DNA of 51,998 bases from Bacteroidales bacterium (GTDB lineage Bacteria; Bacteroidota; Bacteroidia; Bacteroidales; F082), in assembly GCA_016936505.1 (NCBI GenBank), contig JAFGXS010000076.1, positions 1 through 51,998 on the forward strand, given 5' to 3'. Made by a program: the position numbers and the translations under genes. The notes beneath the pieces were generated by a model, which was not told where the DNA came from, ran no database searches, and worked only from the letters and a program-made list of their open reading frames with translations. Every line of letters begins with the position of its first letter. Position 1 is the first letter of the stretch. Shown piece after piece: positions 27,506 to 41,788 of the stretch.

Positions 27506-28180
27506 ATGAACTTTCACGAATTTTTTCAGTTGCTCTATCAAAATATTGTGGACAGCTCCTGGATCGAAATTATTGCTGCTGCATTTGGATTGTTAAGTGT
27601 GTGGTATGCTAAAAAAGCCAATATATTGGTTTATCCGACAGGAATTGTCAGCGTATTGTTGTATGTGTACATTTGTTTTAATGCCCAGCTTTATGCCGAC
27701 ATGGGAATCAATGCCTACTATTTCATATTCAGTGTTTATGGTTGGATTATCTGGTCCAGAAGAGATGAAAATAAAGAGGAAATTCCGGTTACATGGTCAG
27801 GAAGAAAAACCTGGCTGATCAGTATTGGAGTGATGATTGTTTCTATTATTGTGATTCAAATCCTGTTGCATATTTTTAAAGCTGACGACAAGCAATACTG
27901 GTCAACAATTGTTCCTTATACCGATACTTTTACAACAGCTGTATTTATAGTGGGTATGTGGCAAATGGCAATGAAAAAAGTAGAAAACTGGATCTTCTGG
28001 ATTGTTGCTGATGTGGTATCTGTACCGCTTTATTTTTATAAACATTTGGTATTTACCAGTTTACAATACCTTGTGTTTTTGGTGTTGGCTGTAATGGGAT
28101 ATATGGAATGGGTAAAGCTGGCACGCGAACATCAAAATAAAGTTGCAGCAAAAGCAGAAGAAGCAGAAGTTTATGCTTAA
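27506..28180 (+). CDS. pnuC: PnuC-family vitamin transporter
   Basis: A 224-residue membrane protein with about seven hydrophobic segments. PnuC features include ATEIIAAAFGLLSVWYAKKA-like sequence near residues 18-36, NAYYFIFSVYGWIIW (about 68-82) and ENWIFWIVADVVSVPLYFYK (about 155-174). PnuC transports nicotinamide riboside; in Bacteroidota close relatives (PnuT) transport thiamine. The YkoF-like gene before it favours thiamine, the NadR-like kinase after it favours nicotinamide riboside, so the substrate is open. Its last codons overlap the kinase start by 8 bases. Confidence 0.85.
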   Translation: MNFHEFFQLLYQNIVDSSWIEIIAAAFGLLSVWYAKKANILVYPTGIVSVLLYVYICFNAQLYADMGINAYYFIFSVYGWIIWSRRDENKEEIPVTWSGRKTWLISIGVMIVSIIVIQILLHIFKADDKQYWSTIVPYTDTFTTAVFIVGMWQMAMKKVENWIFWIVADVVSVPLYFYKHLVFTSLQYLVFLVLAVMGYMEWVKLAREHQNKVAAKAEEAEVYA

Positions 28181-28685
28181 ACGGGTTGCTATTACCGGAC
28201 CGGAATCAACCGGGAAGTCATGGCTGGCTGAGCAGCTGGCAATTAGGTTCAGAACTGAATTTGTTCCTGAATATGCCAGAGAATATCTTCAGGATCATGG
28301 CATGAATTACGATCTGAAAGACATAGAGATAATGGCTAAAGGTCAGGTAAAGAATGAGGAAATAGCAGCTCTGCAAACAAAGACTCTTTTATTTTGTGAT
28401 ACAGATCTGTTGGTGCCAAAAATCTGGAGTGAAGTTGTGTTTGGTTCCTGTTCTGAATGGATTCAAAACCAGTTTTTAACTCACAAGTATGACCTGTTTT
28501 TGTTGTGTTATCCTGATTTGCCCTGGGAGTTTGATCCGATGAGAGAAAATCCGGATAACCGGGATGAACTTTTTGTACTGTATGAAAAAGCATTGAAAGA
28601 AAATAACTTTCCTTACAGAATAGTAAAAGGATTGGGTGGTGATCGTCTTGAAAATGCAATTAATTTTGTTAAGGAAATCATATAA
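28173..28685 (+). CDS. NadR-like P-loop kinase (nucleoside-vitamin kinase candidate)
   Basis: A 170-residue cytoplasmic P-loop NTPase. Walker A is GPESTGKS (9-16), followed by FVPEYAREYL, a block typical of the ribosylnicotinamide kinase domain of NadR, then LLFCDTDLLV (Walker-B-like) and YDLFLLCYPDLPWEFDPMRENPD. It lacks the NadR nucleotidyltransferase and regulator domains. The ATG at 28173 overlaps the pnuC stop and directly precedes RVAITGPES; a longer frame from 28143 adds only lysine- and glutamine-rich residues. It probably phosphorylates the substrate brought in by PnuC and so traps it. Confidence 0.82.
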   Translation: MLKRVAITGPESTGKSWLAEQLAIRFRTEFVPEYAREYLQDHGMNYDLKDIEIMAKGQVKNEEIAALQTKTLLFCDTDLLVPKIWSEVVFGSCSEWIQNQFLTHKYDLFLLCYPDLPWEFDPMRENPDNRDELFVLYEKALKENNFPYRIVKGLGGDRLENAINFVKEII

Positions 28686-31765: not shown

Positions 31766-33373
31766 CTAATCGATAGTCAGAATAATAGGGGCAAGAGTTC
31801 GCTGTGAATCGTTCATGTCTTTTGCAACTATGTGTTCAAAAATAATATTCTGACCACGATTTGTTCTTTGAATTTGTTTGCGCATTTCAGGAGTGAAGTA
31901 GGAGTTTTTAGATTTGAAATGATAAACTTGAAACCCTCTTTGTAAGGTCATTGTAAATGAAGTAATAACAAAAGTCTGGTCAAAATCAAAGTCATCAGGC
32001 ATTTTGGGCACAACTGCTCCGGCTGCCAGCATAATATCCTGATTAATTCCTCCGGAATTTTTCCCGCCTACTGTAGCAATTGGCGTAGGCAGATCTTTTA
32101 CTCTGAATACTTTAGAGTTGAGGTATTTCATGCTGCCATCTATGTTAATTCCTACACGAATAACGGCTTCTTCAACACCCTGCGGAACTCTTACCATCCA
32201 GTCGTTATTGTTACGGTTCTTTTTTATGGTTCCAACAGAAATGGAAGGAGTGAGTCTTTCGCTCGGGATTCCTGGTACAGAAATTGAAACGGGATTGTCA
32301 ACGCCAATGTAAAAGACATTCATTTTTTTAGCGGAAACCGTAACGGAAGGTTGAGAAACAATAAACTGGCTACTGAAATGATAGTAGTTGGTTTTCCCCT
32401 CTGCATTGGTTTGTTTTACTAAGCCTGCAAATTCGTTTATTCCTTCCTGAGTTGCAGGTAAATCGATCATGATTTTTCCCGGTTTGCCCGAAACCACAGA
32501 AGCGCCTTCGGATTGGTCGTTGGGTAAATAGTTTATACCTGTTTTGTAAAACACAGTTGGGTTTTGTGTTGTATCATAAGCTGCAACAACAACTTCAGCC
32601 TGGTATCTTCCTCCCCAAAAAACAAAGTTGCTTTTGGGCAAAACTTTGGCTTCAATTTTATCAAACTTAAAGTTTCCCTTTCCAATGGATTTATACAAAT
32701 GGTTCACCACTTCATATTCAGCATTATAAACGTCGGCTTTGAACTTGTTTAATATGGCAAGGTCAGCTGCCAAAATAGTATTGTAGAAGAAATGGTTTTG
32801 CCAGTTTTGTTTTTGTCCGTCGGCATTAAAATAGGGTCCACTGGTAGCCAGATTGGTTTGAATATCTTTAAATTGATTTTTGTCCACAAGACCAAGTATT
32901 TTTTCACGGAACTCATCAATCCTTGTTTTTAGCTTTATGGCTTCTCCTTCGTTACCACTGTCTGAGTTCCCAAGAAAATAATGCGTCGGAATCTGGTAAT
33001 TATCTTTATTTGTGAGTTCTCTTACAGGAACAATTTTGGCAGAATCAAGAGGAATTTCTTCGGTTTTGGATACGATCTCATATTTTATCTGATCAATATA
33101 TTCGAGAAGTTCTTTTGAAAATGCTTTTGCCTGTTGCGCTTTTTCCCAGTAAGGTTTCACTTTGCCGGGATTGAACTCCAGATTCCTGTCAAATCCTTGA
33201 TATATATCGCTTAATCGTTTGTCAATACTTTTATTGGTTAGTACAATATTGTCGTTCACAACTACAAAAGCATTAATTACGTCTTTTGAAATATTTAATG
33301 CCAGCAAAGTGTACAAAACGAGGTACATCATTGACACCATTCGTTGTCTGGGACTTTCTTTTGTAGACGACAT
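31766..33373 (-). CDS. gldM: GldM/PorM-family protein, outside a gldKLMN cluster
   Basis: A 535-residue inner-membrane-anchored periplasmic protein. The N-terminus (ESPRQRMVSMMYLVLYTLLA, then LNISKDVINAF) is the characteristic GldM/PorM start with its single transmembrane helix, which pairs with GldL as the proton-driven T9SS motor. The periplasmic part is a string of beta domains (VEAEVVAAYDT-like and SVPGIPSERLTPSI-type sequence) and ends in a GldM-like C-terminal domain. No gldK, gldL or gldN is in the window. Instead it is the last gene of a chaperone/usher-like cluster, 26 bases after a small exported protein. It may be the housekeeping T9SS subunit or a dedicated paralogue; I favour the latter. 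Confidence 0.88.
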   Translation of the reverse strand: MSSTKESPRQRMVSMMYLVLYTLLALNISKDVINAFVVVNDNIVLTNKSIDKRLSDIYQGFDRNLEFNPGKVKPYWEKAQQAKAFSKELLEYIDQIKYEIVSKTEEIPLDSAKIVPVRELTNKDNYQIPTHYFLGNSDSGNEGEAIKLKTRIDEFREKILGLVDKNQFKDIQTNLATSGPYFNADGQKQNWQNHFFYNTILAADLAILNKFKADVYNAEYEVVNHLYKSIGKGNFKFDKIEAKVLPKSNFVFWGGRYQAEVVVAAYDTTQNPTVFYKTGINYLPNDQSEGASVVSGKPGKIMIDLPATQEGINEFAGLVKQTNAEGKTNYYHFSSQFIVSQPSVTVSAKKMNVFYIGVDNPVSISVPGIPSERLTPSISVGTIKKNRNNNDWMVRVPQGVEEAVIRVGINIDGSMKYLNSKVFRVKDLPTPIATVGGKNSGGINQDIMLAAGAVVPKMPDDFDFDQTFVITSFTMTLQRGFQVYHFKSKNSYFTPEMRKQIQRTNRGQNIIFEHIVAKDMNDSQRTLAPIILTID

Positions 33374-33399
33374 GAGCGTTTATTTAATTCATTTTACTG

Positions 33400-33903
33400 T
33401 TATTGCATAATAGTGTAAATAATATTTATCGTGTAGGAACTGGTATCGGTATTTATGCGGTTTGGAACCGAGAAAGTCAGGTTCACTTTATGCCCTTCAC
33501 CGTATCCTGATCCTGTATAGCAGGTTGCAATATTCTCAAGTAGTATTTTTGCAGCCTTGGTATTGGAAATGATTTCTTTTCCACTGGAAGTTCCTGTATT
33601 ACTTTTGCTGAACCCATGATATGAACCGGCTTCTGCTGTGAGGCTTAATCCTAAAGGAACCCTGCTGGTAATCATTTGAATATTAATGGTGAAGTCTGGT
33701 TCAAGATAGTTTACCAGTGTAGTATAATTGATCCATTGAGAAAAATTTATAATCTGAGTCTTTGAATAATTGTTTTCATAAAAAGGAACCAGCTCTAGAT
33801 ACCTGGTTTGATTATTACTGACTGAAAAGCTGATTTGTGCAAACGATTTGCTTTGAATGCTTATTAAAAAAATGATGAGCCCTATAATTCTGATTTTTCT
33901 CAT
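33400..33903 (-). CDS. small exported CYTG-motif protein (fourth subunit candidate)
   Basis: A 167-residue exported protein with signal peptide 1 to about 23 (ending SKSFAQ). The mature part is predicted all-beta and contains ENIATCYTGSG, the motif shared with the three small proteins encoded upstream, and ends in an alternating strand SYTINIIYTIMQ. It is the most divergent member. It lies 10 bases after the usher-like gene and 26 before the GldM-family gene, apart from the other three. By position it could be a minor, tip or anchor subunit; that is inference. No known family recognised. Confidence 0.7.
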   Translation of the reverse strand: MRKIRIIGLIIFLISIQSKSFAQISFSVSNNQTRYLELVPFYENNYSKTQIINFSQWINYTTLVNYLEPDFTINIQMITSRVPLGLSLTAEAGSYHGFSKSNTGTSSGKEIISNTKAAKILLENIATCYTGSGYGEGHKVNLTFSVPNRINTDTSSYTINIIYTIMQ

Positions 33904-33913
33904 GATGATTCCT

Positions 33914-36613
33914 TTACCAGTTTGTTTTTTGAAATTGAATTTTATGATAAATCTTTTTTACGATTACTTGTAGTTTTTTTGCTTCTCCGGCTTTTAGATT
34001 AGGGATGAATTCTTGATTTTCAAGTTCATAACCTTCAGGTATTCCATTGTTGTAGACTTTTACTTTCCAGCTTCCTGGCCTTAAATTTGTAAAACTGAAA
34101 GTTCCGTCTGAGTTGGAATAAACTCTGTAAACTTCCGAGCCGTTACTGGCTTCAATAATTAATTTTTTTAACTGTTTCTTAACGCTGGTATAACCTTTCA
34201 GATTCAACTCGTCGTCTTTTTTTATTTCAATGGTTCCATTTATTTGGGCTGCTGTTGTAAGTGAGATTTCAAACTGAGTGTTTTTGCCCGGCAGAATATC
34301 TGTTTTATAAGGACCCGGCTTTACAGCAATAGCATCAAATCCGGCTTTTGAATAATCAATAAATAAGTAATGAGTGCCTGTTTTCACGTTGCGAAAATAG
34401 AATTCACCATTTTGGTCAGTATAAATGGTGTTCCCAGACAAAGTAACCATGATGCCTTTAATGTTGCTAACTCCATCGTTTATAATGCGACCCTGAAGGC
34501 TGCCGATGTTCTTTCTTTTGGATGAAGGAAGATTGAACCTGTGTGTAAATCTTAAGGTGGCACTCAGCTGGGTGCTGTTAATATCTTCCTTTTTAAGTCC
34601 ATAATTTACATAGACTCCAATTTCGTTTCTTTTATTGATATGATAGTCAGCAGAAAGTCCAAGAAGGCTCCTGTTTTTATAATACTGTTGAACCTCGTAA
34701 TTGTTTTGATATTGAAAAGCAATACGGACTTTGTTTCTCCAGATTCCGTTAAACGAGCCACCATAGAAATATTTCTTGAAACTTTCGTTGATAAATTGTT
34801 GTCCCCCAAGATATCTGGTAAAAGCGGATACATACATGTAATTGTTAATGCGGTATCTGACAGAAAGATTAGCGTTAAGCACTGTTTTTGTCGCAAGTTC
34901 ACCTTCTTTAACCTGAAGCAGATTGGTTGTTTTTCCTAAAGTAGAATAAAGGTTAAAGTCAATTCTTTTAATACGGCTCATAAGAGATAGTCGTATGTTT
35001 TGATCCGTATAATAAAATTGCTTTTGTGTACTCATGTCTTCCATTGTGTTTTTGCTGAAACTGATACTCAGACTGCTGTTAATGGAAAGCCGGTAACCAA
35101 TTGATAAAGCCATGCTATTGCTGTAGGGAGCATTTGCATAAATAGTATCCAATGCAATATTTACATGGTTGAAGAAATAATTAAAGTTGATGTTTAACTT
35201 TTTCAGAAGAGTGATTCCCAGTCCGGATGAAATGTACTCGCTGTTGGAAAAATATCCGGGGAATTCAGGATCAGCCTTTGAGTAATCAATAAACAGGGTA
35301 AAGGGCTTGCGATTGATACTCAGGTTGGCAGAATAAGCCTTCGAACTGGTTCCGCCAGATGAACCTGTTGCGTATTCAAACTTAATTTTGCTCCATTTTA
35401 CAGGTTGAAAGTTTCCTGAAATTGTAATGAGTTGGGCTGAACTGTTTGAAACAAATGACTTGTTAAGATATCCGGCTTTAAGCTCTATTTTTTTTAGATA
35501 TAATGATCCGTGAAAGGAAATGACTTGTTTAAGCGACGGATAATATCTGGGAATATTGATGAATCCACCAATACCTAATTTATTGAACCGTTGTTCAATT
35601 TCTACACCTCTGCCAAGTCTTGAAGCCTCGGTTAACTGTGTTAAGCCGAATGTTTGATCACCCAATAGAAGTTTTGTTTTGGGTGTGGAATAACGTGCTG
35701 AGTAAATATCTGTTTGTCCGAGTATGGGTTCTCCCTGACGGTTAGGCCCACGAAAATGAAAGTATAAAGTTTTTCTTTTTCCGGGTTTTAATATGCCACC
35801 GCCTTCAATGTCATACATATATCCGTAACTCCTTACTCCATTAGGATTGTTTGTGGCAAACATTCCCGATATACGAACAGGAATCCGGTTATAAGCGTCG
35901 AACTTAACTTTTTCAGAAGGTATGATCTTGTAATTGGATGTGCTGGAACTATTAATGTCAGGGGCACCTAAAATAAATGCTTTTACACCTACATTAGTCT
36001 GGGTTACATTTTGTATTTTTTTTGGAGCACTGATCAGAATATGAATAACTTGTGATGAATCAGGAGAGAGCGTAATGTTATGGGTTTCAGAAGTTCTGTT
36101 ATTAATCACAGTGGTCTGAATTGTGGTGATCACATTTGACAGGTTCTGAAGTAAAAAGTCTATACTTGCCGTATCTCCTGAAAAAACATAAACAGGGGCT
36201 TTCAGAACTTTTGTCTGAATAGCATATTTTGGTTTGATATAAATGGGAACAGTTACAATGCCAATCTTCTGATTGTGTTCTTCAAAAGCTTCAATATCGA
36301 TTTTGTAATTTCCAACAAAAGCATTATCAGGGGCATAAAAACTAAAGATTTTTAGTTTCTTACTTCTGGCTTCAACAATCTCAGATGAATAATCCATTAG
36401 TTGATTCCAGCCTTTCGGTGCTTTAATACGTAAGTGAAATTTCTGAGAGGAAAAGGTGTTATTCTTCAACATCACTGCAACACAAAAAGTTGATCCGGGG
36501 TTAAGGCTAACCTCATTGTTGTTTACCAATCTGATTTCCAGTTCGCCATTAATAGCATAAACTGCAAAAGAAATCAAAAAGTTCAATGCAAAAATTAAGA
36601 TTCTTTTCCACAT
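33914..36613 (-). CDS. usher-like outer-membrane beta-barrel protein with Ig-like end domains
   Basis: An 899-residue exported protein with signal peptide 1-19. About residues 20-240 are two Ig-like domains (LNPGSTFCVAVMLKNN, APKGWNQL; then VFSGDTASIDFLLQN). About 240-730 are alternating, aromatic-rich strands typical of a large outer-membrane barrel, and this part contains TKLLLGDQTFG followed by GRGVEIEQRF. That is reminiscent of the LxLGDxxT...FRGxxL segment of fimbrial ushers. About 735-899 are two carboxypeptidase-regulatory-like domains (YTDQNGEFYFRNVKTGTHY; YSNSDGTFSFTNLRPGSW), placed like usher C-terminal domains. It is next to a PapD-like chaperone gene, as ushers usually are. I call it usher-like on architecture and short motifs; an unrelated barrel is possible. 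Confidence 0.65.
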   Translation of the reverse strand: MWKRILIFALNFLISFAVYAINGELEIRLVNNNEVSLNPGSTFCVAVMLKNNTFSSQKFHLRIKAPKGWNQLMDYSSEIVEARSKKLKIFSFYAPDNAFVGNYKIDIEAFEEHNQKIGIVTVPIYIKPKYAIQTKVLKAPVYVFSGDTASIDFLLQNLSNVITTIQTTVINNRTSETHNITLSPDSSQVIHILISAPKKIQNVTQTNVGVKAFILGAPDINSSSTSNYKIIPSEKVKFDAYNRIPVRISGMFATNNPNGVRSYGYMYDIEGGGILKPGKRKTLYFHFRGPNRQGEPILGQTDIYSARYSTPKTKLLLGDQTFGLTQLTEASRLGRGVEIEQRFNKLGIGGFINIPRYYPSLKQVISFHGSLYLKKIELKAGYLNKSFVSNSSAQLITISGNFQPVKWSKIKFEYATGSSGGTSSKAYSANLSINRKPFTLFIDYSKADPEFPGYFSNSEYISSGLGITLLKKLNINFNYFFNHVNIALDTIYANAPYSNSMALSIGYRLSINSSLSISFSKNTMEDMSTQKQFYYTDQNIRLSLMSRIKRIDFNLYSTLGKTTNLLQVKEGELATKTVLNANLSVRYRINNYMYVSAFTRYLGGQQFINESFKKYFYGGSFNGIWRNKVRIAFQYQNNYEVQQYYKNRSLLGLSADYHINKRNEIGVYVNYGLKKEDINSTQLSATLRFTHRFNLPSSKRKNIGSLQGRIINDGVSNIKGIMVTLSGNTIYTDQNGEFYFRNVKTGTHYLFIDYSKAGFDAIAVKPGPYKTDILPGKNTQFEISLTTAAQINGTIEIKKDDELNLKGYTSVKKQLKKLIIEASNGSEVYRVYSNSDGTFSFTNLRPGSWKVKVYNNGIPEGYELENQEFIPNLKAGEAKKLQVIVKKIYHKIQFQKTNW

Positions 36614-36682
36614 TTAAATCCTCACTTCATTTCATACATCGAGATTCTTAATGATTTGCTTTTGCAGTATGCTATATTTTAT

Positions 36683-37474
36683 TTAAAAATAAAGGGTGTA
36701 GTTCAGACCAAAAACATCTTGTCCTGAGCCTTGAGCCACAATTACAGACTGGTATGTTTTTCCTGAAGGAACCCCATCAAGATTTATTCTGAACCTTGTT
36801 GAACAACCCGGAAAAATTCCTCTTCTGGGGGCTTCAAGTTCTTTTACTAACGAACCGGACTGGTTAAATAATTTCATGCTCAGATCAGGTGCAATGAAAT
36901 GGTCGCCGGTATTTTCCAGATCAATGGCTAAATATAACTGATCACCTTCCCTTACTAAAGTAGGTTTCATAAAAGTTAGTTTTCCTACTCCTTTGTCTTT
37001 AATATCGGTTACAATTTGGATCGCATAACGGATTACTGTATTAATTGTTACCTGGCCAGCTTGTGAAGGTTTGATAGGAGCCACGCCTTCTACCATAAGT
37101 ACACTCCAGTAGGTTCCTTTAAGCGAATCATTGTGGGGTACAGTTACTGTATATTGAATATATATTGATGAATTGGCTCTGACTACAGCTGTTTTAGGTC
37201 CGAACTCAATCCATTTTGCATTTGATCGTTTTTGTGAACCGGGAGCATTGTAATAAGTAAAATCTTTATAATCATATTGAAGATCAGTTTGATAAACTTT
37301 AATCTCCTGATCTGTATTACCGGTGTTTTGGATTTTGATTTCGCCTTTGTAAATATCTCCGGACGATGCTTTATGAACTTGTCGTAGGCTACCTACTACT
37401 TCGATTGATGCCATTGATGTGAACGGCAATAAAACCGCCATCAGGCAGAGAAATAAAATTTTGTTGCGTTTCAT
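36683..37474 (-). CDS. PapD-like periplasmic chaperone
   Basis: A 263-residue exported protein with signal peptide 1-22 (ending TSMAS). The mature length of about 240 residues equals that of fimbrial chaperones, which have two Ig-like domains. Domain 1 contains KGEIKIQNTGNTDQEIKVY and VRANSSIYIQYTVTVPHND, then GTYWSVLMVEGVAP and VTINTVIRYAIQIV. This is the order of the PapD F1-G1 region (a proline-Asp turn, FW-x-N/S-hydrophobic, then the G1 strand with alternating hydrophobics). Domain 2 starts KLTFMKPTLV and contains LAIDLENTGDHFIAPD. The role would be folding and capping of exported subunits before delivery to the usher-like protein encoded 69 bases downstream. Relationship to classic chaperones is remote. 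Confidence 0.72.
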   Translation of the reverse strand: MKRNKILFLCLMAVLLPFTSMASIEVVGSLRQVHKASSGDIYKGEIKIQNTGNTDQEIKVYQTDLQYDYKDFTYYNAPGSQKRSNAKWIEFGPKTAVVRANSSIYIQYTVTVPHNDSLKGTYWSVLMVEGVAPIKPSQAGQVTINTVIRYAIQIVTDIKDKGVGKLTFMKPTLVREGDQLYLAIDLENTGDHFIAPDLSMKLFNQSGSLVKELEAPRRGIFPGCSTRFRINLDGVPSGKTYQSVIVAQGSGQDVFGLNYTLYF

Positions 37475-37536
37475 GTGGAAAAATTTTGTGAGGATTCAAG
37501 AAATTTATTTTTATAATTATTAATTAGTTTTTGTGG

Positions 37537-37565
37537 AAAAAAAAGGGGGGACAGGGTGTCCCCCC
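37537..37565 (-). terminator. strong intrinsic terminator inside the fibre-like cluster
   Basis: Read on the minus strand: GGGGGGACA, loop CCC, TGTCCCCCC, then eight T. It starts 28 bases after the stop of the third small exported protein and ahead of the chaperone gene. It should make that protein's message more abundant than the assembly genes downstream. Confidence 0.92.
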
Positions 37566-37593
37566 AAGCGTATAGGTCACTATGAATGATAAT

Positions 37594-38157
37594 TTACTGC
37601 CCAGCAGTAATCGTTAAAGTCACGGTTGTCGCAGTTCCTGTTGTTGCTACGATATTAGCATACTGCCCAGCAGTACTAGCGTTCCACTTCCAGTCAAATC
37701 GATACCCGTCTTTAGCAGATGTGCCAGTATAGCAACTGCCAATTCCGGTAAAAATATCCTGTGGGGTAGTAGATAAAGTTATTGTACTTACAGCTGATCC
37801 ATAGGTACCGTCACCGTTGCTGCTTGTAGGCGTTGTTCCTGTTACATCAAGAGAAGTACCGGCAGGAATGACATCATAACTTGCCTGAATACTCCTTGTT
37901 TGACCCGAAGCAACAATTGAAGAAACCTGAGCATAACTGGTTCCGGTTCCTCCTGCAATTGCAGTACCGGCAACATTGGTTGTCAGCTCTAAAGAAATGG
38001 CTGCAACATTGCCTGTAGTATCAACAGCATTAATTAATAAGACTTCAGGGATGCCCATTGAAATTTGTTGTGTGGTATTTGATTGTGCATAAGAAGATGC
38101 GGACAACATTAAGAAGCTAACCACAATAATAATCTGAGATAGTAGATTTTTTTTCAT
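37594..38157 (-). CDS. small exported CYTG-motif protein (major subunit candidate)
   Basis: A 187-residue exported protein: signal peptide 1 to about 25 (ending SSYAQ), then a Thr/Ser/Ala/Gly-rich, Lys-poor, all-beta mature part. Shared features are IPEVLLINAVD near the mature N-terminus, TPQDIFTGIGSCYTG, DGYRFDWKW and the last strand VTLTITAGQ. It has a private -7 box (38232-38239) and is followed by a strong terminator, the transcript design of a highly expressed structural subunit. The composition resembles a surface-fibre protein. No known family recognised. Confidence 0.78.
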   Translation of the reverse strand: MKKNLLSQIIIVVSFLMLSASSYAQSNTTQQISMGIPEVLLINAVDTTGNVAAISLELTTNVAGTAIAGGTGTSYAQVSSIVASGQTRSIQASYDVIPAGTSLDVTGTTPTSSNGDGTYGSAVSTITLSTTPQDIFTGIGSCYTGTSAKDGYRFDWKWNASTAGQYANIVATTGTATTVTLTITAGQ

Positions 38158-38231
38158 AATCTTATTTTTTTTAAAAGAACAACCTTTTATAGTAGCTGGG
38201 TTAGAGCTTTTAGGTTAACAGTAAACCGGAA

Positions 38232-38239
38232 CAAATGTA
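38232..38239 (-). promoter_or_regulatory. internal -7 promoter box before the major-subunit candidate
   Basis: TACATTTG on the minus strand matches TAnnTTTG and is identical to the box of the first susC operon. It predicts a leader of about 68 bases. The rest of the 170-base gap shows only a CCGG-repeat stretch near 38253-38271. Confidence 0.5.
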
Positions 38240-38327
38240 TAGCCTTAGGAGAAGCCGGTAAATAGGCCGGAAACTGAAAAGAACTTCAAAAATGCTGATT
38301 TAGAACTACTGAAATACTGAAAATTTT

Positions 38328-38900
38328 CTAGTGAAAAGCCACAGTAATAGTAAATGTGATTGTAATAGTGGTATTTTGTGAATGAATTTGTTTATAGTTA
38401 TCTGAATACCAGGAAAAAGTCATCTGATATCCATCTGTATCATTTGTTCCGGTGTAACATGTCCCTATATTAGTAACAATATTCTGATCAGTAGTTGAGA
38501 GAATTATAGGAGTAGTAATAGGTGTTCCTAATGATCCGCCACTATTGGTAGTAGTACAAGGGGCAGAGATTAATGTAAATACTGTTCCCTGAGGAACTGT
38601 CCCTGCGGTAATGCAGGCTGAGATTGTACCGCTTCCGCTGTAGGCATGTCCGTAATTTCTGGCAGTTGCCGATAATCTGACAAACAAATCTGAATTTGTT
38701 GCCGGACTGGCTCCCAGACCAGCAGTGGTAGTATTAAACTGCATCCCGATATAGGGATGGTTTGAATCAATCAATCCAACATTATAATTCTGGGTTGGAA
38801 CCGAATCTCCTGCTACATAGGTTTGGGCATTCAGCTTATTGGAGAAAATGATGAGTGCTGTAATCATTAAGATTATATATACCGTTTTTTTCATGATCAT
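38328..38900 (-). CDS. small exported CYTG-motif protein (second subunit candidate)
   Basis: A 190-residue exported protein; a second Met at 38894 is an equally good start. Signal peptide ends about NKLNAQ. The mature part is Thr/Ser-rich and beta-predicted, with GGSLGTPITTPIILSTTDQN, VTNIGTCYTGTN, DGYQMTFSWY and the last strand TITITFTITVAF. It has two further cysteines (SACITAG, SAPCTTT), unlike its relatives. It starts 4 bases after the first subunit gene, so they are co-transcribed. Confidence 0.72.
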   Translation of the reverse strand: MIMKKTVYIILMITALIIFSNKLNAQTYVAGDSVPTQNYNVGLIDSNHPYIGMQFNTTTAGLGASPATNSDLFVRLSATARNYGHAYSGSGTISACITAGTVPQGTVFTLISAPCTTTNSGGSLGTPITTPIILSTTDQNIVTNIGTCYTGTNDTDGYQMTFSWYSDNYKQIHSQNTTITITFTITVAFH

Positions 38901-38904
38901 TTCT

Positions 38905-39465
38905 CTAGTGAGCTGTGATGGTATAGGTTATTGAAATAGGTTTGCCGTGCAGATAATTTATGAAATAGTCATAACTTTTTGGATTATCCCAAACATAATT
39001 AAGTAAACACCCTTTGTTTGTCCCGGTTCCGGTATAACAACTTCCAATATTGATGATGAGGTTCTGCGGGTAATAGTTTAATTTAATTTCCCCAACCGGA
39101 GTTCCTAATGAACCGGCACCGAATCCTGCATCGGGGCTCACAAAAACATATAAATCTACATCTGAAGGGAGTGAACCTGAACTGATGTTTGCGGTAATGT
39201 AATTGGAGCTTCCCGATTTTACAATTGAAGAGTAGTTGAGCCAGGTTTTATCGATATTGGTCTTTGTTATGGTTTGTTCAACCTGATTGGAAGCAATGGC
39301 GAAACTGTGGCTGATGATTTGCTGGTTCTCTACGGCAAAATTGATCAGCGCAATTGGTGGAATCTTCAGCTCAAAAGTTACTGTAGACTTGTTGCTGTTT
39401 TGACTTTTAACAACATGGGGTGTTAAGGTTAGAAATAAAAGACCAACAAGTATTACTTTTTTCAC
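38905..39465 (-). CDS. small exported CYTG-motif protein (first subunit candidate)
   Basis: A 186-residue exported protein with signal peptide 1 to about 22 (ending HVVKSQ). Near the mature N-terminus it has IPPIALINFAVE, matching IPEVLLINAVD of the third protein. Further on come GAGSLGTPVGEIKL, LIINIGSCYTGTG, and the last strand ISITYTITAH. It begins 150 bases after the response-regulator gene; I found no clear -7 box there (TATTTTGG at about 39518-39525 on the minus strand is one base short in spacing). First structural gene of the cluster. Confidence 0.74.
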   Translation of the reverse strand: MKKVILVGLLFLTLTPHVVKSQNSNKSTVTFELKIPPIALINFAVENQQIISHSFAIASNQVEQTITKTNIDKTWLNYSSIVKSGSSNYITANISSGSLPSDVDLYVFVSPDAGFGAGSLGTPVGEIKLNYYPQNLIINIGSCYTGTGTNKGCLLNYVWDNPKSYDYFINYLHGKPISITYTITAH

Positions 39466-39615
39466 TTCTACAAAGGGGATTTTTGATGAAGTAAAATTAG
39501 ATATTATTCAACGGAGCCAAAATAGGCATTATGCTGAAGTTGAGGTTTGAAATTCTGATTTTCTGATTTATCAGTTTTCGGATGTAAAATAACTAGAAGT
39601 TCAGTAAGTAACCAA

Positions 39616-40263
39616 TTACCATAATGTGATAATACCTTTCTTAATGGCGTATTTAACCATGTCGGCAGTGGAGTTCAGATCCAGTTTGGTCAGTATATTT
39701 TGCTTATGGGTTCCAACAGTTTTAACACTGATGAATAACTTATCTGCAATCTCTTTGCTGCTTTTACCTTCGGCATATAGCTTAAGTATTTCAAGTTCTC
39801 TATCCGATAAAATGGGGTCATGTTCTTCTGAACCTGTGCTTTTTCCAATGTAATCGTGGATGATTACTTCGGTTATTTCATCGCTCAGATATTTTTTGCC
39901 TGAATATACAGTTTTCACGGCCTGAAGTAATTCATCGTAATCACAGTTTTTGAAAAGATAACCGTAAGCCCCTACTTCCAGCATTCCTTTAATAAAATGC
40001 TTTTCCGAATGCATGGTTAAAGCAATTACTTTTAAATCGGGAGCCTCCGTTTGTAAAATTTTGGTGGCTTCCATGCCATTAATTTTTGGCATGCCAATAT
40101 CCATAATCAGAATATCGGGTTGTTTTTTCTTTGCTTTTTCAACAGCCTGTTTTCCATCCTCTGCCTGTCCTACTATTTCTATTTCAGGATCTTCAGACAA
40201 AAGTGTGATTATTCCTTCTCTGAATAATTTGTGGTCGTCGGCAATTAGAATTTTTATCGACAT
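39616..40263 (-). CDS. NarL/FixJ-type response regulator
   Basis: A 215-residue cytoplasmic regulator. The receiver domain (1 to about 120) has ADDH (acidic pocket), phospho-acceptor Asp55 in ILIMDIGMPKINGMEA, Thr83-like switch residue in LTMHSE and Lys in YLFKN. The LuxR-type helix-turn-helix (about 148-212) reads LSDRELEILKLYAEGKSSKE and TVGTHKQNILTKL. It is 1 base downstream of the histidine-kinase gene and 150 bases upstream of the small exported proteins, so it most likely controls that cluster. Confidence 0.93.
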   Translation of the reverse strand: MSIKILIADDHKLFREGIITLLSEDPEIEIVGQAEDGKQAVEKAKKKQPDILIMDIGMPKINGMEATKILQTEAPDLKVIALTMHSEKHFIKGMLEVGAYGYLFKNCDYDELLQAVKTVYSGKKYLSDEITEVIIHDYIGKSTGSEEHDPILSDRELEILKLYAEGKSSKEIADKLFISVKTVGTHKQNILTKLDLNSTADMVKYAIKKGIITLW

Positions 40264-40264
40264 A

Positions 40265-41788
40265 TTAGTTGTTTTTTATGGGTATGCTAAAAGTGGCTTT
40301 AGTGCCTTTATCTATTCTCGATTCAATGATTAGTGAACCCTGTATTGACTCAAGTCTTTCGCTGATACTAAACAATCCATAACCGCCTTTTTTAAATAAA
40401 GCATTCTTTCCTTTGTATTCAAATCCTTTTCCATCATCTGTAACGCCAAAGATGTAAAAATTATCGTTTTTATGAACACTTACTCTGATATTGTTTGCCT
40501 GCGCATGTTTGGTAATGTTTGCAAGTAGTTCACAAACAATACGGTAGGTTAGTATTTTTGTGTCGTTATTCATTTCAACCAGATCAATGTCTGAAAGAAA
40601 AACCGTATTTACATTATGATCAGATTCAGTCTGGCTCAGTTTCCATTTAATTGCAGGAAGTAAACCGAGTTCATAAAGAATAGGTGGGCTTAAATCATAA
40701 GTTAGTAAACGCGACTGTATAATTGCCTCATTTAAGAACCCGGATATTTTTTTGAGTTTTTCTTTGATTTCATCCGGAACAATGTTCTTTTTCTGGATGG
40801 AAGAAAGGTTCATATGTACATAAGAAAGAATCTGACCGATTCCATCATGCAAATATTCTGCAATACGGCGCCGTTCTTTTTCTTCAACCACTAATAACTC
40901 CGAATTTAGTTTTTTGAGTTTCTGTTGATCGCGTTTTATTTCAAGCAAACTCTTTTTTAGCTCTTCTTCAGCTCTGCGCCTGAGTGTTACATCGTGTGTA
41001 ATCCCTCTGTAGCCAATAAACTTTAATTCTTCATCAAAAATCGGAAATCCGCTAATAGTCAACCAAATACTTCTGCCGTCCTTTGTTCTGCATAAAACCT
41101 CAATTTCTTTATAGTCAATTTTCTTATTGAAGATGCCAAATAAAACATCTCTTGATTTTTCGTGATTGACAGAGTTGTGAAAGTCAAATAAATATTCTTT
41201 GTTTATGACTAATTCAGCTCGAACCCCAAGAATTTTTTCAATTCCGGCACTTACATAAGTGTATTTTCCCTCAGCATTGATTTCCCAGTAATATTCATTG
41301 GCATATTCAGAAATCTGAAGGAACCGGTTCTCACTGGTGTTGAAATCTTTGGTTTGTTTCTTAATGAAAAGTTCCAGATCCTGATTTTGTTTACGCAGTA
41401 AATCTTCGGCTTTTTTAATTCGTAACATTACTTTTACCTGCGAAACCAGTTCTGGTTTTTGAAATGGTTTGCTGATAAAAGCCTCGGCTCCTAAATTTAG
41501 GCCTTTCACCCGATTTTCGTAATTCTGGCCCAAAGCTGAAACCAATAAAATTGGGATGTGTTTGGTTTCCTCATCTTGTTTGAGTATTTCACAAGCCTCA
41601 AAACCATTCATTCCCGCCATCATAATATCCAATAAAATGGTGTCAGGCATAACCTGTTTTGCAATTTTAACCCCTTCTTCTGCCGAAAGAGAAGTAATAA
41701 TTTCACTGTCAGGAAAGTTTCTTTTTAAGATGGTTTCAATGAGAACCAGATTACTGTAATCGTCATCTATGGCTAAGATTGTACTCAT
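40265..41788 (-). CDS. cytosolic hybrid histidine kinase (REC-PAS-HisKA_3-HATPase)
   Basis: A 507-residue sensor kinase without signal peptide or membrane segment. Domains: N-terminal receiver (1 to about 125, Asp54 in TILLDIMMAGM), short coiled coil (about 128-150), PAS/PAC (about 152-272, WEINAEGKYTYVSAGIEKIL and GRSIWLTISGFPIFDEE), second coiled coil, then a NarX/DegS-type HisKA_3 region with phospho-His314 in YLHDGIGQIL. The HATPase has CELLANITKHA, DDGKGFEY and GGYGLFSISERLE. It should phosphorylate the adjacent NarL-type regulator and itself be tuned by an upstream phosphodonor through its receiver. The signal is unknown. Confidence 0.92.
   Translation of the reverse strand: MSTILAIDDDYSNLVLIETILKRNFPDSEIITSLSAEEGVKIAKQVMPDTILLDIMMAGMNGFEACEILKQDEETKHIPILLVSALGQNYENRVKGLNLGAEAFISKPFQKPELVSQVKVMLRIKKAEDLLRKQNQDLELFIKKQTKDFNTSENRFLQISEYANEYYWEINAEGKYTYVSAGIEKILGVRAELVINKEYLFDFHNSVNHEKSRDVLFGIFNKKIDYKEIEVLCRTKDGRSIWLTISGFPIFDEELKFIGYRGITHDVTLRRRAEEELKKSLLEIKRDQQKLKKLNSELLVVEEKERRRIAEYLHDGIGQILSYVHMNLSSIQKKNIVPDEIKEKLKKISGFLNEAIIQSRLLTYDLSPPILYELGLLPAIKWKLSQTESDHNVNTVFLSDIDLVEMNNDTKILTYRIVCELLANITKHAQANNIRVSVHKNDNFYIFGVTDDGKGFEYKGKNALFKKGGYGLFSISERLESIQGSLIIESRIDKGTKATFSIPIKNN

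Follow-up and report, generated by a model that had tools for sequence, protein, structure and literature searches.

In a Bacteroidales bacterium of the F082 lineage, a run of nine consecutive open reading frames (ORFs), all on the minus strand, probably specifies a chaperone/usher-type pathway that assembles fibres or a coat at the cell surface. The genes lie on contig JAFGXS010000076.1 of assembly GCA_016936505.1, and the whole 51,998-nucleotide stretch analyzed is referred to here as the window. We put the probability of this reading at about 65%. The pathway would be a form of its own, working with a periplasmic chaperone of the WxLIP type, and in one branch of its carriers it is joined by a paralogue of GldM, a protein of the type IX secretion system (T9SS) motor. 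That paralogue is called GldM' below. ORF calling agrees with the coordinates in a preliminary description of this DNA, and Pfam and NCBIfam agree with the hybrid kinase, NarL-type regulator, and GldM-like protein named there. Neighboring genes are spaced 1–170 bp apart, and the GldM' gene starts 26 bp past subunit 4. The features, with the evidence for each in parentheses, are as follows.

40265..41788, minus strand: sensor kinase with receiver, PAS, HisKA_3, and HATPase domains, 507 residues (Pfam)
39616..40263, minus strand: response regulator of the NarL type, receiver plus LuxR/GerE domain, 215 residues (Pfam)
38905..39465, minus strand: exported subunit 1, a predicted beta-sandwich of 186 residues whose mature N-terminal segment is unfolded in the model (ORF call, alignment, model)
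38328..38900, minus strand: exported subunit 2, of the same family as subunit 1, 190 residues (alignment)
37594..38157, minus strand: exported subunit 3, of the same family as subunit 1, 187 residues (alignment)
37545..37565, minus strand: terminator-like hairpin, a candidate attenuator, in the gap between subunit 3 and the chaperone gene (hairpin scan)
36683..37474, minus strand: putative periplasmic WxLIP-type chaperone with signal peptide and two Ig-like domains, 263 residues (profiles, hhalign, hydropathy)
33914..36613, minus strand: usher-like putative outer-membrane protein, 899 residues (Pfam, model, sister loci)
33400..33903, minus strand: exported subunit 4, 167 residues, downstream of the usher gene (alignment, gene order)
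31766..33373, minus strand: GldM', 535 residues (Pfam, NCBIfam, trees)

The 263-residue protein had been described as a PapD-like chaperone. The two-Ig architecture behind that label stands; the sequence family does not, and the nearest detectable relative is WxLIP, the WxL-interacting protein found on the surface of Gram-positive bacteria. Taken alone, the protein matches only a general Ig-like family in Pfam and NCBIfam (fn3_5, 29.2 bits, cut-off 27.6), with no match to the Pfam WxLIP families and none to PapD_N or PapD_C at E ≤ 1. When a ten-row profile of the chaperone family was searched against the whole Protein Data Bank (PDB), the sole convincing match was WxLIP1 of E. faecium (E = 1.2e-9; the next had E = 0.03). 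A seventeen-row profile matched WxLIP1 (9i25) at E = 1.3e-16 over positions 35–263 of 265, and its best fimbrial chaperone in the PDB was YadV, at E = 1.1. Four of ten family members match Pfam WxLIP_HBD and four match WxLIP_PGBD, both at E ≤ 1; PapD_N reaches E = 0.024 in one Flavobacteria-type relative.

Profile–profile comparisons with hhalign, run on chaperones and subunits after removal of signal peptides, give the same picture. Against six WxLIP records the chaperone family aligns over 233 columns at 97.6% with a score of 90, whereas shuffled controls score no higher than 17 and reversed ones no higher than 13. Ten fimbrial chaperones of K-12 give 68% over 199 columns with a score of 40 (shuffled 19, reversed 17), a value that is unspecific because these fimbrial chaperones also give 48% when compared with the barrel protein's N-terminal Ig domains. 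Those domains give 93% with the WxLIP-type chaperones, and WxLIP compared with PapD gives 2%. Profile comparison thus establishes homology of the chaperone to WxLIP over its full length and makes kinship with PapD possible. At the C terminus, the window's chaperone has a hydropathy of 0.55 compared with 2.8–3.8 in four WxLIPs, indicating that it has no membrane helix, as expected of a predicted soluble periplasmic chaperone. A 2023 paper on WxLIP (PMC10599100) predicts that a hairpin strand fills a gap in WxL and so completes the beta-sandwich of the partner; the words chaperone and donor are absent from its main text.

WxLIP-type proteins also turn up in other settings. On plasmid 2 of Deinococcus deserti, one such chaperone (locus L120, 6998–7768) is annotated as a FimB/Mfa2 family fimbrial subunit. 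Its Pfam Mfa2 match, the only one met, is marginal (21.7 bits, cut-off 21.2), and the label is likely a misannotation. Family f35 (L122, L123) has WxLIP-type chaperones without a matched adjoining barrel gene and includes 23 genomes with ORFs above the PapD_N cut-off; its proteins may bridge WxLIP and PapD. A record labelled as a Klebsiella pneumoniae plasmid (CP069367.1, 101761–102459) holds an unannotated protein sharing 74% identity with E. faecium WxLIP1, probably enterococcal DNA within that assembly. A Streptomyces goshikiensis plasmid (L138, 4920–5876) encodes a DUF916 protein, and neither a WxL nor a barrel gene is annotated alongside.

The 899-residue protein consists of two N-terminal Ig-like domains (about 24–234), a predicted barrel (about 235–700), and a C-terminal part (about 701–899) of two Ig/transthyretin-like domains; its Pfam matches are mainly to CarboxypepD_reg-type repeats near the C end. 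The evidence for a barrel is a model of low confidence, in which the pLDDT of this region is mostly below 50, together with the protein's relatives. The model assigns 23 strands between residues 249 and 670, and a possible additional strand near 681–695 was read by eye from the sequence. FimD accounts for eight of the nine best Foldseek rows. Sister-locus barrels that adjoin homologous chaperones reach 95% profile probability against the K-12 ushers, and in 4 of 395 phylum genomes such barrels match Pfam Usher at E values from 2e-5 to 7e-4, below the cut-off. The Foldseek rows and the sister loci together indicate an usher-like barrel. Two observations lower the confidence somewhat: The remaining Foldseek row is an axonemal chain, and hmmscan backs the Pfam Usher match in just two of the four sister proteins. 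No plug-like insert is seen in the model at the low barrel confidence just given. The window's own protein has no Pfam Usher match, and the Usher cut-off is reached in 0 of 395 phylum genomes. The usher-like outer-membrane barrel of the preliminary description is retained as probable on the FimD matches and sister loci.

In family f41 (L130, L165, L166, and L167), the usher-like barrel proteins have SPOR domains in their C-terminal part. We know of no classical usher with a SPOR domain.

Conservation was followed in 40 genomes in a first search (the window's own included), 395 genomes of the phylum, and 173 of the family. Five of the 40 match: the window's own; G007 of the same genus (64% identity) and G004 (28%), both over the full length; and, with partial matches only, G003 and G029. 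At E ≤ 0.001, a three-row profile matches 92 of the 395 phylum genomes, mostly in the C-terminal repeats only, and a near-full-length match in a single piece is found in nine, including the window's. Around the stronger profile matches, the order subunit(s)–chaperone–barrel–subunit(s) is found. Class-level relatives (L125–L129, L131) have a second form of the cassette, with barrels of 932–971 residues and subunits that include TYTATAL ends; the two barrel forms are homologous (hhalign 99.9% over 824 columns, 98.3% for the barrel part alone). Chaperone and barrel genes also occur on plasmids of D. deserti and D. psychrotolerans (profile E = 3e-54 and 2e-22, 9e-25 and 9e-19), where the small neighbors give no match to the subunit profile. 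In the phylum sample, 20 of 26 chaperone matches at E < 1e-40 lie no more than 3 kb from a barrel match; eight of the 20 are profile-building members or the window, and 12 of 18 remain without them. The other six strong chaperone matches have no barrel match within 3 kb, as confirmed gene by gene in G160, G315, and G293.

The full order, from kinase and regulator through subunits, chaperone, barrel, and subunit 4 to GldM, is found in G007, with one extra subunit gene, and in four of five genomes of genus g202, with two to four upstream subunit ORFs as called. A contig end cuts the fifth g202 locus before the regulator, so the kinase–regulator pair is seen upstream in six of the seven GldM-linked loci. 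Because the full order recurs in G007 and in a second genus, the operon is not a chance arrangement, and the conservation of gene order expected by the preliminary description is borne out. The cassette itself is broader than the window's operon: Its core is a set of subunits, a two-Ig chaperone, the barrel, and a further subunit.

By alignment, the window's exported subunits form one family, and none of the four belongs to a credible Pfam or NCBIfam family. A model of subunit 1 built from 11 sequences is a generic beta-sandwich (mean pLDDT 65) in which residues 21–50, with pLDDT below 50, are unfolded; the modelled segment is consistent with donor-strand complementation. Subunit 4 lacks the N-terminal segment present in the others, as a terminal subunit might, which makes it a candidate tip or terminal subunit, and it has a relative at the same position in G007 and the five g202 genomes. 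Subunit 3 is likely the major subunit, since G007 has two copies and the terminator-like hairpin stands behind it. That hairpin has nine pairs, seven of them G–C, a T8 tail, and a z score of −2.8. A hairpin with a T-rich tail lies upstream of the chaperone in all seven GldM-linked loci, in gaps of 119–925 bases scanned without a shuffled control. In a wider set, 4 of 13 subunit–chaperone gaps have one, and G004 has an additional strong hairpin (z = −4.4) that the wider scan did not pick.

GldM' has all four GldM domains in Pfam and scores 313 bits with TIGR03517, whose cut-off is 180. Its resemblance to the T9SS copies points to an N-terminal hydrophobic helix, of modest hydropathy (1.43) in the window. 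The window's genome has three GldM genes, and the other two each follow gldL; neither gldL nor gldN adjoins GldM' in the GldM-linked loci examined. Identity to the genome's main T9SS copy is 37–39%. With the barrel profile at E ≤ 1e-8, 13 of the 173 genomes in the family sample give a match, which spans the full length in 12. Seven of the 12 (the window, G007, and the five g202 genomes) carry a GldM gene 23–33 bp past subunit 4, so GldM' is not a chance neighbor. No GldM gene was found at the cassette in G004, G438, G443, G455, and G456, the absence in G443 being not firm because its contig stops 2.1 kb after the barrel gene. Nor was one found at any of the 11 loci from outside the family that carry an usher gene and were annotated for GldM; one of these breaks off within the usher gene.

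The seven GldM-linked barrels group in a single clade (100/100), and G443 is their sister. The seven GldM' proteins are likewise a single clade (100/100) that excludes the 13 T9SS copies included in the tree; its inner split matches that of the barrels. In a smaller survey with a 32-row tree, the two GldM' sequences it contained fell outside the T9SS clade of the family. Within this branch, the GldM' proteins are thus of common descent, and so are the linked ushers. The window's GldM' is as little as 55% identical to the other six, and the link to the cassette is therefore old. The fibre pathway with a GldM paralogue put forward in the preliminary description accordingly fits this branch, where the combination is stable, and does not extend to the other copies tested, in which no GldM was found. 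Arg9 and a similar hydrophobic segment are kept in all seven GldM' proteins; Arg9 is presumably important in the GldM motor. In G007, the one gldL detected adjoins the T9SS gldM.

A 3.6-kb contig of the window's own genome (C38; L003, L014) carries a second gldL–gldM set. Its GldL shares 32% identity with the main one, its GldM groups with other families, and the contig may be a contaminant or a second T9SS.

A working model of the pathway can be proposed. Sec would export four related beta-sandwich subunits, and the soluble WxLIP-type chaperone would cap each of them. On the model of WxLIP and PapD, it would do so by lending a strand from a hairpin in its first domain. The N-terminal Ig domains of the usher-like protein would receive the chaperone–subunit complexes, and the barrel would pass the polymer outward. 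The hairpin after subunit 3 may cause more subunit than chaperone or usher to be made, and the kinase–regulator pair would control expression of the operon. In the one branch, GldM' would be a permanent part, with a helix in the inner membrane and a rod that spans the periplasm. It has no GldL of its own, and for this reason we propose as most likely that it either shares the GldL pentamer of the T9SS or acts as a passive tether between usher and inner membrane. In the T9SS, the 5:2 GldL:GldM complex is proposed to convert the proton gradient into conformational change acting on outer-membrane parts, and GldM holds three Ig-like domains (PMC10202324, consulted in part). Perhaps one branch recruited the GldM arm and with it brought proton-motive force to the outer membrane.

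Two accounts of GldM' within the chaperone/usher reading can be compared. In one, GldM' would have no role as a motor and would act passively, as a spacer in the periplasm or a scaffold on which the usher is assembled; we rate this somewhat short of even odds. The missing cognate GldL favors a spacer, as do the three Ig-like domains, since such folds bind other beta proteins; retention of Arg9 and the N-terminal hydrophobic segment in all seven exceeds what a spacer would need. The hydropathy of the window's segment is modest. A bolder and rather doubtful proposal is a powered chaperone/usher, in which GldM' replaces the T9SS GldM in some GldL pentamers and torque or force passed across the periplasm to the usher energizes fibre secretion or fibre movement at the surface, in contrast to the classical pathway, and in which Gram-positive WxLIP and the pathway's chaperones descend from one strand-donating chaperone.

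Outside the chaperone/usher reading, the Gram-positive WxL/WxLIP clusters are a close comparison, and the operon could be a diderm module of that type, with the WxLIP-like protein holding WxL-like proteins on peptidoglycan or membrane, the barrel an ordinary porin or anchor, and no polymer made. The chaperone's best relative is a WxLIP, with tandem PGBD–HBD Ig domains by family profile; a small exported protein is encoded directly before it, and three of six WxL records have the order small protein–WxLIP–large protein. WxLIP itself is predicted to complete its partner's sandwich by a strand, and some subunit C termini resemble those of WxL, as with the strand VTYTLSDN of a G004 subunit and TITWTLSDAP of L. 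innocua. We nevertheless consider such a module unlikely, given that the chaperone has no membrane anchor and that a barrel match, here of a putative outer-membrane protein encoded after the chaperone, adjoins most of the strong chaperone matches. Nor are the subunits recognized as WxL: Pfam WxL has no match among 19 subunits or in the window's own genome, and hhalign gives only 5–9% against WxL (1.7% for the pooled set).

It is also decidedly unlikely that GldM' belongs to a second T9SS or gliding motor and that its neighbors make a T9SS-exported surface fibre. The TIGR03517 score, the four domains, the hydrophobic helix, and Arg9 all liken GldM' to GldM/PorM, and the genus carries a T9SS gldL–gldM. 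In contrast, GldM' forms a clade of its own, follows the usher-trailing subunit in seven of seven loci with no gldL or gldN beside it, and was not found at the cassettes of five of the 12 family genomes or at any of the 11 annotated loci outside the family; the sole detectable gldL of G007 sits with the other gldM, and Pfam finds no T9SS sorting domain in the window's operon proteins. A classical proteobacterial chaperone/usher operon gained by transfer is very improbable. Like FimC–FimD and PapD–PapC, the operon has small exported beta-rich subunits, a two-Ig periplasmic chaperone, and the order subunit–chaperone–usher–subunit, and its FimD-like model shares with ushers N-terminal domains, a predicted central barrel, and two C-terminal Ig-like domains in a similar length (815–878 residues in seven K-12 ushers vs. 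899). However, no PapD, Usher, or pilin family is matched in the window, profile comparison of the subunits with K-12 pilins returns nothing, and the cassette is diverse within the phylum, where none of the 395 sampled genomes reaches the Usher cut-off. The subunits are of an unnamed family, two N-terminal Ig domains stand in place of the usher N-terminal domain, no plug is evident, and a GldM and a two-component pair are included. Type V (FimA/Mfa1) fimbriae are likewise surface fibres of Bacteroidota, as proposed here for the product of this operon, but the window's exported proteins differ from them in having no lipobox (none in seven operon products tested, the kinase among them) and no Pfam match to the FimA/Mfa families.

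The chaperone/usher reading would thus place such a pathway in Bacteroidota, with the same WxLIP-type chaperone next to a barrel gene in Deinococcus. A table of outer-membrane families, in the part consulted, lists no fimbrial ushers for Bacteroidota (PMC4827864), and no description of such a gene combination was found in the literature searched, including the accessible parts of PMC4793230, PMC12537917, and PMC9127263, with most subscription papers outside reach. It also offers a chaperone reading for WxLIP, hitherto described as a binder of peptidoglycan and host. That a fibre operon has kept the arm of a rotary motor raises the question of whether chaperone/usher secretion can be powered by proton-motive force; a built-in relative of a proton-driven motor part could explain how the fibre is powered.

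Elsewhere in the window, positions 27506–28685 encode a 224-residue membrane protein followed by a 180-residue ATP-binding protein, an arrangement that we take to be the layout of a PnuC/NadR pair.

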